From the NCBI GenBank assembly GCA_018398765.1, contig JAHBMJ010000355.1, positions 105,123 through 130,367 on the forward strand: a stretch of 25,245 nucleotides of DNA. Reading direction: 5' to 3'. The position numbers and the translations under genes are program-made. Shown one piece after another: positions 1,036 to 13,330 of this stretch. How positions within the stretch are numbered: position 1 is the first letter of the stretch; every line of letters begins with the position of its first letter. The stretch comes from Chromera velia (lineage: Eukaryota > Sar > Chromeraceae). The notes beneath the pieces were generated by a model. The model did not search any database. It was not told the origin of the DNA and was given only the letters and a program-made list of their open reading frames with translations.

Positions 1036-1406
1036 GTGAGTCTCTGTTTTTCTTTCTTCCCGTTTTGACAACCCGTTGCCTTTTCTTCTATACTAGCTCC
1101 CTTTTCGACTGCTGGTGCAATCAGTCGTTTTCTCTCTCGCATTCGGACAACATGTGTGTCCAGTCATTAGCATGTTCTTGTCTTTGCGATTTGTGTTTTG
1201 GTGCTTGTGAATGATCTTTAAATTTCTTCTCAGAGAAACGACACGGAAACAGACAACATGTCCTCCTTACCGAAATAAAATGAATGTATTTTTAATTATT
1301 TGGAATAAATGAATAAATTTCATTCATGCAAGAAACAGACAACATTTCTTTCTGTTCTAGTTGCGAGTTTGTATGTTGACAGCTTGTTTCCTTTTGCTGC
1401 CTGCAG

Positions 1407-1836
1407 CTCTACCCCCCCCCCTAATTGCCTTCTGCGTTGACAACCTGCCCCTCTTGCTTGACCTCCTGTCGGACAAGGTGAGACCCGTCCAGCGTGCCGC
1501 AGAGGCTCTGCTGAAGACGGTCACGGAGAGTCTGAACGCCAACGCACTGAGGTTCCCCCACCTTGTGATTCCGAACATCCTCACTGCCTGCCGCTCTTCG
1601 AAGAACTGGCAGACCACGCTGGGTGCTTTGAACTTCCTTTCCAGCCTCGCAACCGGCACTGAGGAGGTCGCTGCTCAGGTGTCCCATTCCCTTCCTCTCA
1701 TTGTGCCCGTTCTCTCTGAGACTGCACGATGTCAAGCCTCAGGTGGTTGAGGCTGCCAAGACCTGCCTGAGACGCTGCATTGCTCTTGCAAGCAATGAGG
1801 ACACCCCCTTCGTTCCTTCTTTCTCCAGCGGCGGTT
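1407..1836 (+). pseudogene. eEF3-like HEAT-repeat segment, copy B (frameshifted and truncated)
   Basis: An exon-like block follows acceptor CTGCAG at 1401-1406. It encodes IAFCVDNLPLLLDLLSDKV, then ALRFPHLVIPNILTACRSSK, NWQTTLGALNFLSSLATG and PLIVPVLSET. This matches the earlier part of the eEF3 HEAT domain, where yeast eEF3 has the comparable 'NKWQ' and 'PELIPVLSET' landmarks. At about 1724 the frame changes: one base is extra or two are missing between SET and HDVKPQVVEAAKTCLRRC. Similarity then runs to NEDTPFVPSF and fades at about 1836. The end of copy B (from 1759) is homologous to the start of copy A (from 1), so these are diverged paralogous pieces, not one continuous gene. No start codon, upstream exons or ABC domains are evident. 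The exon's phase also does not fit the donor of copy A at 1035/1036. Most likely a pseudogene fragment; a sequencing indel is the alternative for the frameshift. Confidence 0.6.
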
Positions 1837-7573: not shown

Positions 7574-8208
7574 ATACAGAGTGCTCATGCAGTTTGCAAT
7601 GCATGCATGAATACATTATACATGGAAAAAGAAATACCACAGAAGTGAGTTCACATAAAACGGAATGACAGAGAGACAGAACAGACATCAGAAAGAGGGA
7701 CACAAAAAGATACAGAGGTGACATGTATTTAAGTGGACCAATACAAACGAATACGGTAGTACATGCACGACACGTGCACACATGCAGTCTGACTGACCGA
7801 TCGTATCTGTTCTGAGTAGCCAACCTGGAATCTCTCTAGAAGGAGTCGAAAGATGAACGACCAGACGAACAGACCGTTGCGTAGATACACGTAAGTAGAA
7901 GTCGTAGCCCTATACGCTAGCCCTCCGTATGCTCAACAATCTTTAAAAGTTTTCCTAGAAGTTTTCTAAAAAAATAAGTTTTACGCTTTCACTGCCTTTC
8001 AGCAGCTTTCTTACGCAGCTATCAAACTTGAAGTCACGCTGAATTTCTCACTTCTAAAAAAGCTATAAAACTAGTGACTTTAAAATTGATTAGTTATTTG
8101 ACAAATTTAATTGACAGTTCATGAGATTTGAGTATCACCAGACTCCATGTCAAATGGTCTACATGTACAAAGGAACAGAGCACTTTGAGTTTTTCCAGTA
8201 TGTCTATT
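7574..8208. other. Intergenic region downstream of the CAP/PUB gene
   Basis: Because the neighbouring gene is on the minus strand, this is its 3' flank. It holds a TGCATGCA palindrome at 7600-7607 and AT-rich sequence from about 7930 to 8110. No ORF with protein character was seen. Confidence 0.5.
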
Positions 8209-10254
8209 TCAGAACCCGTGTGCCCCGAAGAGCTGAGTCAAGTAGAAAGACCCGTCAGGTGACTGTGATATTCCAATCCCACACACAGAGAACTTCCCCC
8301 GCAGGTTTCGTTCGTGCCCTGGCGATTTGATCCATCCATCGACCGCCATCTTGGCGACCTGAAACACCCCCTTGTTCATCGCAACGTTCTCTGCTGACTG
8401 GACCGATCGGAAGGGGTAAGCCTTAAACCGCTCATTTGCACCATCATGCCCGAAAGGCACACGCCCAGCAGCCATGTTTTGGGAATGGCCCTGTGCGATT
8501 CGACACAGGGCGTCTGACCAAATGAGAGCGTTCAACCCTAGTTTCCGTCGGTATTCGTTCGTAAAATCCAAGGCCTGTTTGCCAATGTAGACGGGGTCAA
8601 GTTCCTGATTTCGGATTTCTGCCAGAGACTTGGGGGCATTCCACCTCCGTCTCTCGTCCTCTGCGTACTTTCCGGGGCCGTCTCCTTCTTTCCCCCTCGA
8701 CTCCCGTCTCTGCCGGTCCCCCCCTTCCAGTGTTCCCAAGAAACGTTTCGTCTCCTCGGCTGTCATGCCACGCAAGCTGAACGTCTGCTGCTGCTGTCGA
8801 GAGGCGCTGCCGGGGCGAGAACCGGAAGAAGAAGAAGCAGAAGGAAAAGACGGGACTAGTCCCCCACCCCCTCCCCCACCGGAGACGGCCGCATGCCGCT
8901 GTTGCGCCATCAGCCGGGCCGCCAAAAGTTGCGACTGCGCGTCTTGTCGGGCTGTGTCGCCCTTAGTCCTTCGCTGAAACTCAAACGCACCTCCACCCCC
9001 TCCACGCCCCTGCCGCCCTCCCCCCTGCTGACGCTGGTTCACCTCCCCACCCGCAGCTGCTGATCCCTGCGCGGGGGGCAGGGGACTCCTGCTTCTTCCT
9101 GCCCCCCTCCCTGCTCCTCCGGCTGCCCTCGTTCTCGATTCGTGAATCTCTGCAAGGAATCTCCGCTGGGAGATGCCACTTACGCCTGCTGCTGCTCCTC
9201 CAGCTGCTGCTGCTGCTGCTTTTGAAGTTTGTTGCTGGTTCTGTCGCTGTTTTGCTGGGGGCAGCTGGGCAGTGCCAGGCTTTTTGTTTGCTGCCTGTTC
9301 GGCAGGGGGGATGGCTGAGGGGTCTATCTCAACGATGAGGTCCTCAAGGAGACCTAGAGCAACTGCGAGGGTGTCAATGAGGGCAGCCTGGGAAGGAGAC
9401 AACTCGGATAGAATCGGAGGGGGGGCGGGAGCCTCAGGGGATGAAAGGGGGAGGCACATCTGGAGGGGGTCTTCTGGGGATTCGATAAAGCCACTGGCTT
9501 TCATGAAGTCCTTTGCTGCTGGGAAAGCACCGATGGTTTGTGAGATTTTTGGATTGGTGAGTTTGAAGGAATGAAATTTGGTTTCGAGTGGTTTCTCCGT
9601 CACGTTGTTCAAAAGAGTTCTCATAATCTTCATCGTCTGCAGTCGTTTCTCTGAAACATTCAGAGGCGTGATGGTCGGGTTGGGGGGGTGAGAACCATCG
9701 GGAGGGGAAGGAGAAAAGGGGAAGGGACTGGGCTCCATGAGAAAGAGAGGCTCCAAGGCACTCACAATTCTCTCCAACGACTCTTCGGACACAGTCGAAG
9801 AAGATGGAACATTTTCTCTCCCCTCCTCGTCTTCCCTTCCTTCTTCATCGTCTTCATCTAGAGTGAGGTCGATGAGCGGAGGCTGATCAGAAACCTCTGC
9901 GGGGGGGGGAGAAAGATCACCACCTGCCTCCCCTCGCTGTTCGTTTCCCTCACCCCCACCCTGAGCAGGAAAGGAGCACTCCCCCCTGGCTGCTTTTTCC
10001 AGAACAAAATTGACAACAAACTGACGGGAGGGCAAAATGTCTCCATTTGCCCGCACAGCTTCATAGATGCATGTGCGAAGAGAGGCCACTTCTTCTGAAG
10101 GGAACACCTCCATCAACTCCCTCAAGAGAGCTTCTGCAGATTCCGCTCCCTGTCCTTCTCCCTCACCGTCTCCAACCAGCAACTGGCGCCCCAGCTCCCT
10201 CTCTCCATCCGCATCCCGGTACCCTCCCGCCTCCCCTCCTGCCATCTGTCCCAT
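8209..10254 (-). CDS. CUE/UBA-like + SIM + PUB + CAP (YkwD-type) multidomain protein
   Basis: An intronless 681-codon ORF; an in-frame TGA lies just upstream of the chosen ATG. Residues 41-90 resemble a CUE/UBA-like helix bundle (LLRELMEVFPSEE...VVNFVLEKA). Residues 126-136 (PPLIDLTLDED) look like a SUMO-interacting motif followed by acid. Residues about 155-268 resemble a PUB domain (KRLQTMKIMRTLLNNV, PLETKFHSFKL, IGAFPAAKDFMKASGF), a family that often binds p97/Cdc48. A helix at 281-312 precedes a low-complexity Gln/Ala/Gly/Arg linker (320-530). Residues about 555-678 form a CAP/SCP domain closest to bacterial YkwD: TNEYRRKLGLNALIWSDAL, H590, FGHDG (H603), E608, AENVAM (E622), SPGHERNL (H647). 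CAP proteins are usually secreted, yet no signal peptide or membrane helix is visible, so a cytosolic or nuclear role is inferred. CAP and PUB calls are strong; CUE-like and SIM calls are moderate. Confidence 0.85.
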   Translation of the reverse strand: MGQMAGGEAGGYRDADGERELGRQLLVGDGEGEGQGAESAEALLRELMEVFPSEEVASLRTCIYEAVRANGDILPSRQFVVNFVLEKAARGECSFPAQGGGEGNEQRGEAGGDLSPPPAEVSDQPPLIDLTLDEDDEEGREDEEGRENVPSSSTVSEESLERIVSALEPLFLMEPSPFPFSPSPPDGSHPPNPTITPLNVSEKRLQTMKIMRTLLNNVTEKPLETKFHSFKLTNPKISQTIGAFPAAKDFMKASGFIESPEDPLQMCLPLSSPEAPAPPPILSELSPSQAALIDTLAVALGLLEDLIVEIDPSAIPPAEQAANKKPGTAQLPPAKQRQNQQQTSKAAAAAAGGAAAGVSGISQRRFLAEIHESRTRAAGGAGRGAGRSRSPLPPAQGSAAAGGEVNQRQQGGGRQGRGGGGGAFEFQRRTKGDTARQDAQSQLLAARLMAQQRHAAVSGGGGGGGLVPSFPSASSSSGSRPGSASRQQQQTFSLRGMTAEETKRFLGTLEGGDRQRRESRGKEGDGPGKYAEDERRRWNAPKSLAEIRNQELDPVYIGKQALDFTNEYRRKLGLNALIWSDALCRIAQGHSQNMAAGRVPFGHDGANERFKAYPFRSVQSAENVAMNKGVFQVAKMAVDGWIKSPGHERNLRGKFSVCGIGISQSPDGSFYLTQLFGAHGF
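9185..9222 (-). repeat. Trinucleotide (GCT/AGC) tract inside the CAP/PUB gene
   Basis: Runs of GCT on the + strand encode the alanine tract (SKAAAAAAGGAAAG, residues 344-357) in the linker between the PUB and CAP regions. Length variation here would not shift the frame. Confidence 0.75.
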
Positions 10255-11135
10255 CGTCCAGATCAGAGGGAATCAATCTGGTTCACTCTCTACGGACGCA
10301 GTTGGAACTCGAATTGATTTGATTGATTCAGAACCCAAATTCTTGCCGTCTCCGGAGGGCTTTCAAGGGACTCTCTCGCAAGCTTGATATTGTGCCGAGC
10401 TTTGATATTTTGCCTTTACAGGTTCAAGCGAGATCACAGGAGCTCCTTCCTACTGACAGCAACTTGCAACTTCTTCTCTTAATACGTAGCTCCCCTGAAG
10501 TTTCTGCGTTTGCTTTTGACAAGATCTGCGAAGTCATCAAAAAGGATACCTCCGTAAATTTTTGTGGTGACTCTGCCGGCGTCCTGCCGGTGGCCCCGGA
10601 AAGCTCCGCCGCACATGTTGGAAGCCGCTTTGAAGGGCCACGCGCATGCATATGCAGGAATTTATGAGCAACGCTGAAGTTTACTATAGTTTATACTCAG
10701 AGTGTCTGACCGATGTCTGACCGTCATCATGCAGATCGTAATAGATCGTATCAATTGAGCTAGGCTGCACGACTGCACACAAGAAGATCCCTGCATGAGC
10801 AGTACATACAGCCCAGTTGAGATTGTGCCAAGAGTTTAAGTTGCTTTTGAACTTTCCCATCAAACCGTTCTGATCGATCGCACTCTGGATCGACTCTCAT
10901 CATGAACTCCGGTCGTCTCTCTTTCCTCCAGCTTCAGTCTGCCTTCCTAGATCAGGCAGGCGCTCTACGATAGAGCTAGTCCGTCCGTGGAGGCGCCCTC
11001 CCGCTCACTTTTTGTTTGCGACGTGAGCAAAACATAAAGCAAAGCACGATAGACTAGGGTGTGAAAAAGTTTTTCGTTCCAAAACGCAACCGAAGGAACG
11101 CATCAAGAACTAAGGCAAGGAGGAGCTAGGCGAAC
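10255..11135. promoter_or_regulatory. Divergent intergenic region between the CAP/PUB gene and the MFS gene
   Basis: These 881 bases separate two start codons facing away from each other, so both promoters should be here. A short perfect hairpin, GCTCTA-CGA-TAGAGC, lies at 10962-10976, next to an interrupted CTGCC/GGCAG inverted repeat at about 10939-10960. No TATA box can be assigned with confidence. A 114-codon + strand ORF at 10323-10667 has no recognisable features and is not called. Confidence 0.5.
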
Positions 11136-13330
11136 ATGGGGAATGAGGAACCGCTATCGCCTGCGCAGGCAGAGCCCACTCAGGCCGACCTCTCTCCTGT
11201 CGCACCCACCGCCAATGGGGGACCGCAACCGCCCCAGGCCTCCCAGACGAAGGAGCTGCAAAGAGTCAAGGTGAGTGCGTCTCGAGTAGCAAGCAAGTAA
11301 TCCCTCTGGATACAAATCTTCCCCCCGCCTGTCTCCTCTTGCGCCCCCTTTTTCCGAGCCCCTTTGCCTGGCCCCTGCTCTGTGCATGCATGTGCCCCCT
11401 TTGCGCTACGCACGCACGCAGGTGGGCCATCCAAGGGAGGACGTGGGGTACACGAAGTGGGTGTTCGCGTCCTTCGTCGTGATCTCCACTCTGGTACAGT
11501 TTGACTCGGGCATCGTCCCCTCCTCCCTCATTGAGATCCAGGGGGTCCGTCAGCTTGCTTGCTCACTGTCATTCCTCCTTTCGCTTGTGTCTGCACAGGA
11601 AAAGGGAGTATGAGGCATTGCCGTGCTCTTCTTCGGAAGAGAAGAAGGGAAGGAAGGAAGGAAAGATCGCGGCTCTCCCGACTGCCAGGTTGAGGCTGAG
11701 GTTCGACGGAAAGGAGGAAGGAGAGGGGTCCCGGTGGAGGGCGCGCGCGCGCGCGCGCGCGCGCGCGCGCGCGTGTGTGTGTGTGTCTGTGTCAACAATG
11801 TCCGCGTGCCCCCCTCACCAGCTGGATTTGCACAGCAGATGGATGGGTGGATGCATGCATGGCCATGTGTGGCTGCCTGCTTGTGTCTATGTGTATGCAT
11901 GTATGCATGTGGGTGTGTTTGTATGGCTTCCTGCAGCAATTTGGAATGAATGCCTCGGAGGCAGGGCTCCTCGGGGCCCTCCCCTATATCGGGGTCGTGG
12001 TTGCGAGCGTGCCGGTCTCCCGTCTCCTCCAAAAGAACGGGTGGCAGCAGACGGTACTCTTCTGGGGCCTGTTGTTGAATCAGGGATCCCTCGCGCTCCT
12101 AGCACTCGCTTGGGAGAGAGGGCTCCTCTACACGTCCCGTATTTTGATCGGCATGACTCAAGTCAGTGCATGCATGGCCCTCTCCCTCTCTGTCTCTGTC
12201 TCTCTCTCTCTCGTTGAGTGTTCTGCTTTTTGCAATCGTCGTGATCACTATGAGGGATTCCCATCTTCTGAAGGGGGGGAGGGTTCCTGTGTTGTTCTTC
12301 ATTGCCTCCGGCTGGCTTGCTGCAAATTAGGTCCGCTGCTCCTCTCTTCCGGTTGTCTCTTGACTGACAAGGATCGAGGGCTTCCCTCCCTCCCGGCCAT
12401 CTCCCTCCGCCCTGTCATTTCATTTCCTCCACTCCCCTCTGTTGCTTCTCTGTCTCAATCAAGCATCTCTCTCTTTCTCTCTCTCTCACACACACACACA
12501 CTTTCTGTCTGTCTGTTTGTCTCTCCCCTGCCCACTTTGTCAGAGTTTTCGTGATGTTCTTTTATCTCTGTTGCTTTCTTTCTGTTTGTCTGTTGTGTTG
12601 ATGAAGAAGAGGAGGGAAAAAGAAACCATATAGTCTGTCTGTCTGTCTGTCTGTCTGTGTGTGTGTGTGTACACGATGGATGGATGGGGGCATGATGGAT
12701 GGATGGATGGAATGATGCATGCAGACGGTGGTTGCGGTGTACGGCCCTGTGTGGGTGGACGAATTCGCTCCTCTGGAAAGCGCCACTTTGTGGATGGCCC
12801 TGATCCAAGCTGCCAATGTGCTCGGCGTGACTGTCAGTCATCTTTCTTTGTCAATCAATGAATGAATGGATGGATGAATGAATGAATGGATGGATGAATG
12901 AATGGATGGATGAATGAATGAGTGAATGGATGGATGAATGAATGAATGAATGGATGGATGAATGAATGAATGGATGGAGGGGTTTCGTTGAATCAACCAG
13001 CCTGCTTTGTGTGAGAATCAGAAAAAGCTCCCGTGCTCTCTTTTGTAGTTTTGCTTCTTCTTCGCAGCGCTCTGGATTTAATTTCATGAAGTGTTTTTTT
13101 CTGCTTCTCTCCTCTTGCCGATGCTGCTTCTCCTTTTTTTTCGGCATAGCTGTTGAGGGAAGGTGTGTGTGGGGGCGGGGGTGGAAGCAGTCGGAAGCAA
13201 GGAAGGGACAGAGGCAGGGGGCAAATTGTGGCAAAGAGAGTGACATGTGGACATGGCGGGCGGTGAGACAAAGCAAAGCTACAAAAAGCGGATGAGAAAC
13301 GACAAAATTCAAAGACGAAACGTCGCCCTA

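Follow-up and report, generated by a model that had tools for sequence, protein, structure and literature searches.

An intronless Chromera velia gene that joins a PUB domain to a YkwD-like CAP domain, and a second, intron-bearing member in the same genome

A PUB-CAP Gene in One Uninterrupted Frame

A PUB domain and a CAP domain were found in a single intronless gene in a 25,245-nucleotide stretch of the Chromera velia genome (contig JAHBMJ010000355.1, positions 105,123 to 130,367; here called the window), and a second gene with the same two domains was found in the same genome. What is new here is a PUB-domain protein with a partner domain that we have not seen reported, and its occurrence twice. 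No report of a PUB domain with a CAP domain or SCP domain was found in the open-access papers searched, and the first-pass annotation of this DNA had likewise known of no such fusion. A literature co-occurrence of "PUB domain" and "scp" was rejected, scp being ScPNGase there. The pair may already be annotated automatically in public databases. Judged from the sequences, the fusion looks like a true protein family.

The explanation that we favor, with a probability of roughly 0.4, is an intracellular, PUB-docked CAP protein resembling GAPR-1, whose window copy was derived from an intron-bearing gene and has been under selection. The PUB domain would dock on an acidic C-terminal tail or a PIM-like peptide of a ubiquitin-system partner, Cdc48/p97 foremost, and the YkwD-type CAP domain would be tethered at the docking site by the long linker of low complexity. 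The CAP domain would then not be a secreted effector; as in GAPR-1, it would be a module that binds metal through its histidine pair, and lipid or protein, and by which a client is recruited or held. Since the PUB domain is of known partner type, its fusion to CAP would offer a testable handle on intracellular CAP function.

The gene (8209..10254; this and all features of the gene below are on the minus strand) was a single frame from ATG to TGA with 681 codons plus the stop. Its stop-to-stop length was 687 codons, against 324 for the best of 300 single-base shuffles of positions 8000-10500. Pfam analysis of the 681-residue protein up to E 10 gave PUB and CAP and no further family. The PUB domain (residues 202-261; 9472..9651) scored 43.4 bits (E 3.2e-11; PF09409 cut-off 34.3), and the CAP domain (residues 562-676; 8227..8571) scored 62.6 bits (E 8e-17; PF00188 cut-off 21.1). 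The first-pass annotation had proposed both domains in one uninterrupted frame and a Pfam profile check; that check, run here, placed both scores above the curated cut-offs. The spans that it had given, residues 155-268 for PUB and 550-681 for CAP, were wider than the Pfam limits.

The Second PUB-CAP Gene and the Origin of the Window Copy

The search of the genome with PF00188 gave a CAP match at C1425:11952-12155 (minus strand) that read PFGHEGAHERF..AAENVAIN and was close to the window CAP, and an intron-split PUB domain lay upstream of it. Seven exons (14695-14338, 14231-14143, 14059-13722, 13235-13097, 12777-12649, 12197-11955, and 11650-11438) joined in frame into a protein of 502 residues, with six introns of 83-486 bases that were all GT..AG. 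In this model the start codon was picked by eye, and further exons upstream are possible; the end of exon 4 is uncertain, since 13 choices kept the frame and four of these had a GT donor, and position 13097 was used. Both domains passed the Pfam cut-offs in this protein as well (PUB 39.9 bits, CAP 66.1 bits).

In blastp, the window and C1425 proteins matched with 129 bits (E 4e-36) in the linker-CAP half and with 35.4 bits (E 4e-6) in the PUB core. They had the same domain order, an MGQ start, CAP domains that were 50% identical, and the linker motif GGGAF[ED]F[QK]RR, which the alignment placed at residues 420-429 of the window protein (GGGAFEFQRR; 8968..8997) and which reads GGGAFDFKRR in C1425. 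Because this second gene shares all of these features, an assembly or reading accident is an unlikely source of the fusion.

Two of the C1425 introns lay inside the PUB domain and one inside the CAP domain. Since the window protein aligned gap-free at those sites, its gene has the appearance of an old (retro)copy without introns. Retroposition was probably its origin; precise intron loss would leave an identical picture. Between the two CAP coding sequences, differences at codon positions 1, 2, and 3 numbered 56, 45, and 83 over 129 aligned codons, and 39 of the 64 identical residues were encoded by different codons. This third-position excess fits long selection for the protein sequence. The excess was weak in the PUB core, with 36, 24, and 41 differences over 58 codons (12 of 17 identical residues with another codon).

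The lack of introns in the window gene, against six modeled introns in C1425, would also suit a decaying retrocopy, or the frame could hold two genes that share it by chance and have no joint function. We consider such an origin very improbable in view of the 681 stop-free codons, the two intact domain profiles, the third-position excess in CAP, and the recurrence of the fusion in another gene that has several exons and lies elsewhere.

No third PUB-CAP gene was found in whole-genome searches with the protein of either member. The window query returned the window gene, C1425 (two pieces), C91, and a PUB-region match on C682; the C1425 query returned C1425 (seven pieces), the window gene, C91, and a weak match on C3788 (E 0.04). 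At E 0.1, a profile built from PUB regions detected no PUB in 15 kb of C91 or in 10 kb of C3788. The genome search with PF00188 gave 11 places including the window and missed C91, and the nine other CAP places were examined for PUB within 3-kb loci. The search with PF09409 gave four places and missed C1425, because its PUB is cut by introns. As only the best candidates were scored and exons were seen singly, the two PUB-CAP genes are a lower bound.

PUB Domain and Its Pocket

The single-sequence search of the PDB with the window protein (E < 0.01) matched the CAP half only and gave no PUB structure. A profile made from the window PUB region and three further PUB regions of the same genome matched NGLY1 (2hpl, E 2.6e-7) and UBXD1 (6sap, E 8.1e-6), and weakly RNF31 (0.18). 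According to PMC6995525, UBXD1 and NGLY1 grip the p97 tail through YxxN(x)9Y and K/RxxN; the pocket Asn and K/RxxN hold the hydroxyl of the tyrosine and the free carboxylate, and in UBXD1 the pocket tyrosines are among the residues whose change lowers binding most.

The corresponding residues were Leu214, Asn217, Phe227, Lys231, and Asn234 in the window protein and Val, Asn, Phe, Arg, and Asn in C1425. The pockets therefore read LxxN(x)9F and VxxN(x)9F, with both tyrosines replaced, while the carboxylate-binding K/RxxN was kept in both, with K231 and N234 in the window protein and Arg in place of Lys in C1425. The other PUB regions of the genome had Tyr, Asn, Phe, Lys, and Asn (C114), Ile, Asn, Tyr, Ser, and Asn (C682), and Thr, Asn, Phe, Arg, and Asn (C1436). 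As C114 and C1436 also have Phe, Phe at the second tyrosine may be normal in this genome; and as C114 keeps the first tyrosine, a PUB nearer to the p97 type exists elsewhere in it. A UBA-bearing frame (UBA_7, 102.9 bits) was located upstream of the C114 PUB exon on the same strand.

The window protein thus resembles UBXD1/UBXN6 and NGLY1 in having a PUB domain by Pfam and by the 6sap/2hpl profile match, with the Asn and K/RxxN kept. It differs from them in the absence of the pocket tyrosines and of a VIM, and in having CAP in place of the UBX or transglutaminase-like domain (by Pfam).

The change of the first pocket tyrosine to Leu or Val and of the second to Phe in both members raises a different possibility, tentative but to be taken seriously: the PUB would no longer bind p97 and, like that of SPATA2, would keep its fold and use another protein surface, and the CAP domain would be a regulated partner or anchor in a scaffold outside the Cdc48 pathway. 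The C114 PUB, with its upstream UBA-bearing exon and its first tyrosine, would then be the one nearer to the p97 type. Against this, the Asn and K/RxxN are kept in both members, and Phe at the second tyrosine is found in C114 and C1436 too. SPATA2, to our knowledge, has no CAP domain. By its published description it has, like the window and C1425 proteins, an aliphatic residue where the first pocket tyrosine would stand, and PIM binding by its PUB is given as not found (PMC6995525). With their altered PUB pockets, the two genes also offer a natural experiment on the pocket residues that p97-tail binding requires.

Candidate Cdc48 Ligands and the Link to p97

The CDC48 family search of the genome listed 29 places, none above the model cut-off, as expected because the genes are split into exons. 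Downstream of the two best of these 29 candidates, frames ended in EDDLYGS (C3521) and GDDLYS (C3757), the exons being unjoined. Given these acidic ...DDLY.. ends, a ligand for the PUB domain is probably present in the genome. A genome scan for the DDDLYxx codon pattern gave 14 matches against five for the reversed pattern, and the Cdc48 candidates were not among the matches. The two Cdc48-like genes differ in their C-terminal ends; one may be the host copy and the other a copy associated with the plastid.

VIM (Rx2h3AAx2R) and SHP motifs, with consensus sequences from PMC5389986, had no match in the window or C1425 protein. The helix LLAARLMAQQR, which resembles a VIM and whose C1425 counterpart has AAR, failed the VIM consensus and was rejected. 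The link to p97 drawn in the first-pass annotation was accordingly upheld in part: the Asn and K/RxxN and the Cdc48 candidates with ...DDLY.. ends speak for it, and the replacement of both tyrosines and the lack of VIM and SHP motifs speak against it. Binding of p97 by the PUB-CAP protein is plausible but unproven and, given the altered pocket, far from certain.

CAP Domain

The YkwD type assigned to the CAP domain in the first-pass annotation held as a likeness and not as family membership, since the window protein scored 38.8 bits with TIGR02909 (NCBIfam spore_YkwD) against a cut-off of 171. The single-sequence PDB search gave 4ifa (E 2.2e-4). A profile of the window CAP and three bacterial relatives matched 4ifa with E 3.1e-12 and GAPR-1 (1smb) with E 4.4e-5.

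In the profile alignment to 1smb, His603 (8446..8448) and His647 (8314..8316) were equivalent to GAPR-1 His54 and His103, the proposed zinc pair (PMC6900432). His603 was kept in C1425; His647 and Glu622 of the AENVA (GENxA) motif (8389..8391) were invariant in the alignments of two and four sequences. The candidate zinc histidine pair and the GENxA glutamate were therefore present in both members.

The bacterial relatives were obtained from a GTDB scan with two short peptide patterns, by which only close relatives are detectable. Three of 103 pattern matches were confirmed (an Ignavibacteria MAG, Thiohalocapsa sp. ML1, and a Bacteroidetes MAG), with 39-45% CAP identity and the AENVAMN stretch. 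Unlike the window protein, these YkwD-type CAP proteins were short, had export-like N-termini (by eye), and had no PUB. The fusion suggests recruitment of a bacterial-type CAP domain away from secretion. IMG/VR was scanned twice with these domain alignments (CAP and PUB); among the 63 and 32 pattern matches, no viral relative was confirmed.

Conservation of the histidine pair and the glutamate would also be compatible with an enzyme. In such a scheme the CAP domain would be a metal-dependent hydrolase, possibly a protease, which PUB brings to Cdc48-processed substrates, comparable to the NGLY1 glycanase or to Wss1, in which Cdc48-binding and SUMO-binding motifs are coupled to a protease. The window copy also has a candidate SUMO-interacting motif (below), which points the same way but is absent from C1425. 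Three general functions have been proposed for CAP domains, namely protease activity, which would fit this scheme, lipid binding, and oligomerization; no CAP activity is generally accepted, however, and the role is called still poorly understood (PMC6900432). An enzymatic CAP is on balance unlikely, and the binding module of the favored explanation is preferred.

N-Terminus, Localization, and Short Motifs

No N-terminal hydrophobic stretch was present in either PUB-CAP protein: over the first 35 residues, the 10-residue hydropathy peaked at 0.29 in the window protein and at 0.55 in that of C1425. By the same measure C91, a YkwD-type CAP gene, reached 2.79, and its N-terminus was like that of a secreted protein. 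The CAP domain had two cysteines in the window and one in C1425, with no cysteine pair in common. Together, the lack of an N-terminal hydrophobic stretch and of a common cysteine pair argue for an intracellular location of the PUB-CAP proteins, as with GAPR-1. The highest 19-residue hydropathy of the window protein was 1.88 at residue 290, which passes a loose membrane-helix threshold, against only 1.09 in C1425. With their MGQ start, both proteins matched the N-myristoylation pattern at Gly2, which is a weak pattern.

GAPR-1/GLIPR2 is alike in being a CAP protein without an N-terminal hydrophobic stretch and in the two aligned histidines. The window protein differs in its YkwD-type CAP, which scored better with the bacterial SCP 4ifa, in the fusion to PUB, and in its much greater length. 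GAPR-1 is described as located at the Golgi, on its cytosolic side, and as a binder of Beclin 1 (PMC6900432 and PMC7554809).

The CUE/UBA-like region that the first-pass annotation had placed before the PUB domain was not borne out: no UBA or CUE family was detected up to E 10 in the whole protein or in a 61-residue piece of the region. The same Pfam library does detect UBA_7 in the C114 frame, although it could overlook a domain that is short and divergent. The segment (residues 36-95; 9970..10149) fell in an alignment gap and was absent from C1425 as modeled. Its sole PDB match was a KEOPS subunit (E 0.009), which was set aside; the PDB sequence search gave no support for CUE/UBA.

A regular expression located the sequence LIDLTLDEDDEEGR at residues 127-140 (9835..9876), which resembles a SUMO-interacting motif. 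The pattern, defined post hoc, occurred in none of 20000 residue shuffles. It was absent from the C1425 protein; for this reason, and because the pattern was set after the sighting, the motif is treated as a lead only. With it the favored explanation could be extended, in a form that we regard as improbable: PUB would sit on the Cdc48 tail, the IDLT-acidic motif on SUMO-marked clients, and the CAP domain would act on or hold the extracted client or its membrane. If such a Cdc48/SUMO-wired CAP protein were true, the CAP superfamily would gain an intracellular ubiquitin-system role through its own domain architecture. We know of no other case of such a role within a CAP architecture.

Other PUB Frames and the Neighborhood of the Window Gene

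A second unusual PUB fusion was seen at C1436:25499-25699, where a 566-codon frame had a rhodanese match (43 bits) and a C-terminal PUB (51.3 bits). A dual-specificity-phosphatase match in this frame was under the threshold (14.1 against 33.5 bits). The protein starts with MGCASSK, which resembles a double-acylation signal. At C682:881-1054 (minus strand), a 383-codon frame had a C-terminal PUB (54.4 bits) near to that of C1436, with Ile at the first pocket tyrosine; no Pfam family besides PUB was detected in it up to E 0.1.

In the window, an EF3-like protein with HEAT repeats has an exon at positions 1361-1750 (plus strand; PF24987, 66.3 bits). A sigma-70/terminator scan was set aside as having no meaning for a eukaryote gene. 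From about position 11136 (plus strand) there is likely a multi-exon transporter gene, within which the frame 11775-12551 scored 25.5 bits with MFS_1, under the cut-off of 33.4. Its first ATG was 882 bases from the oppositely oriented PUB-CAP start, and the two genes may have a common promoter region.
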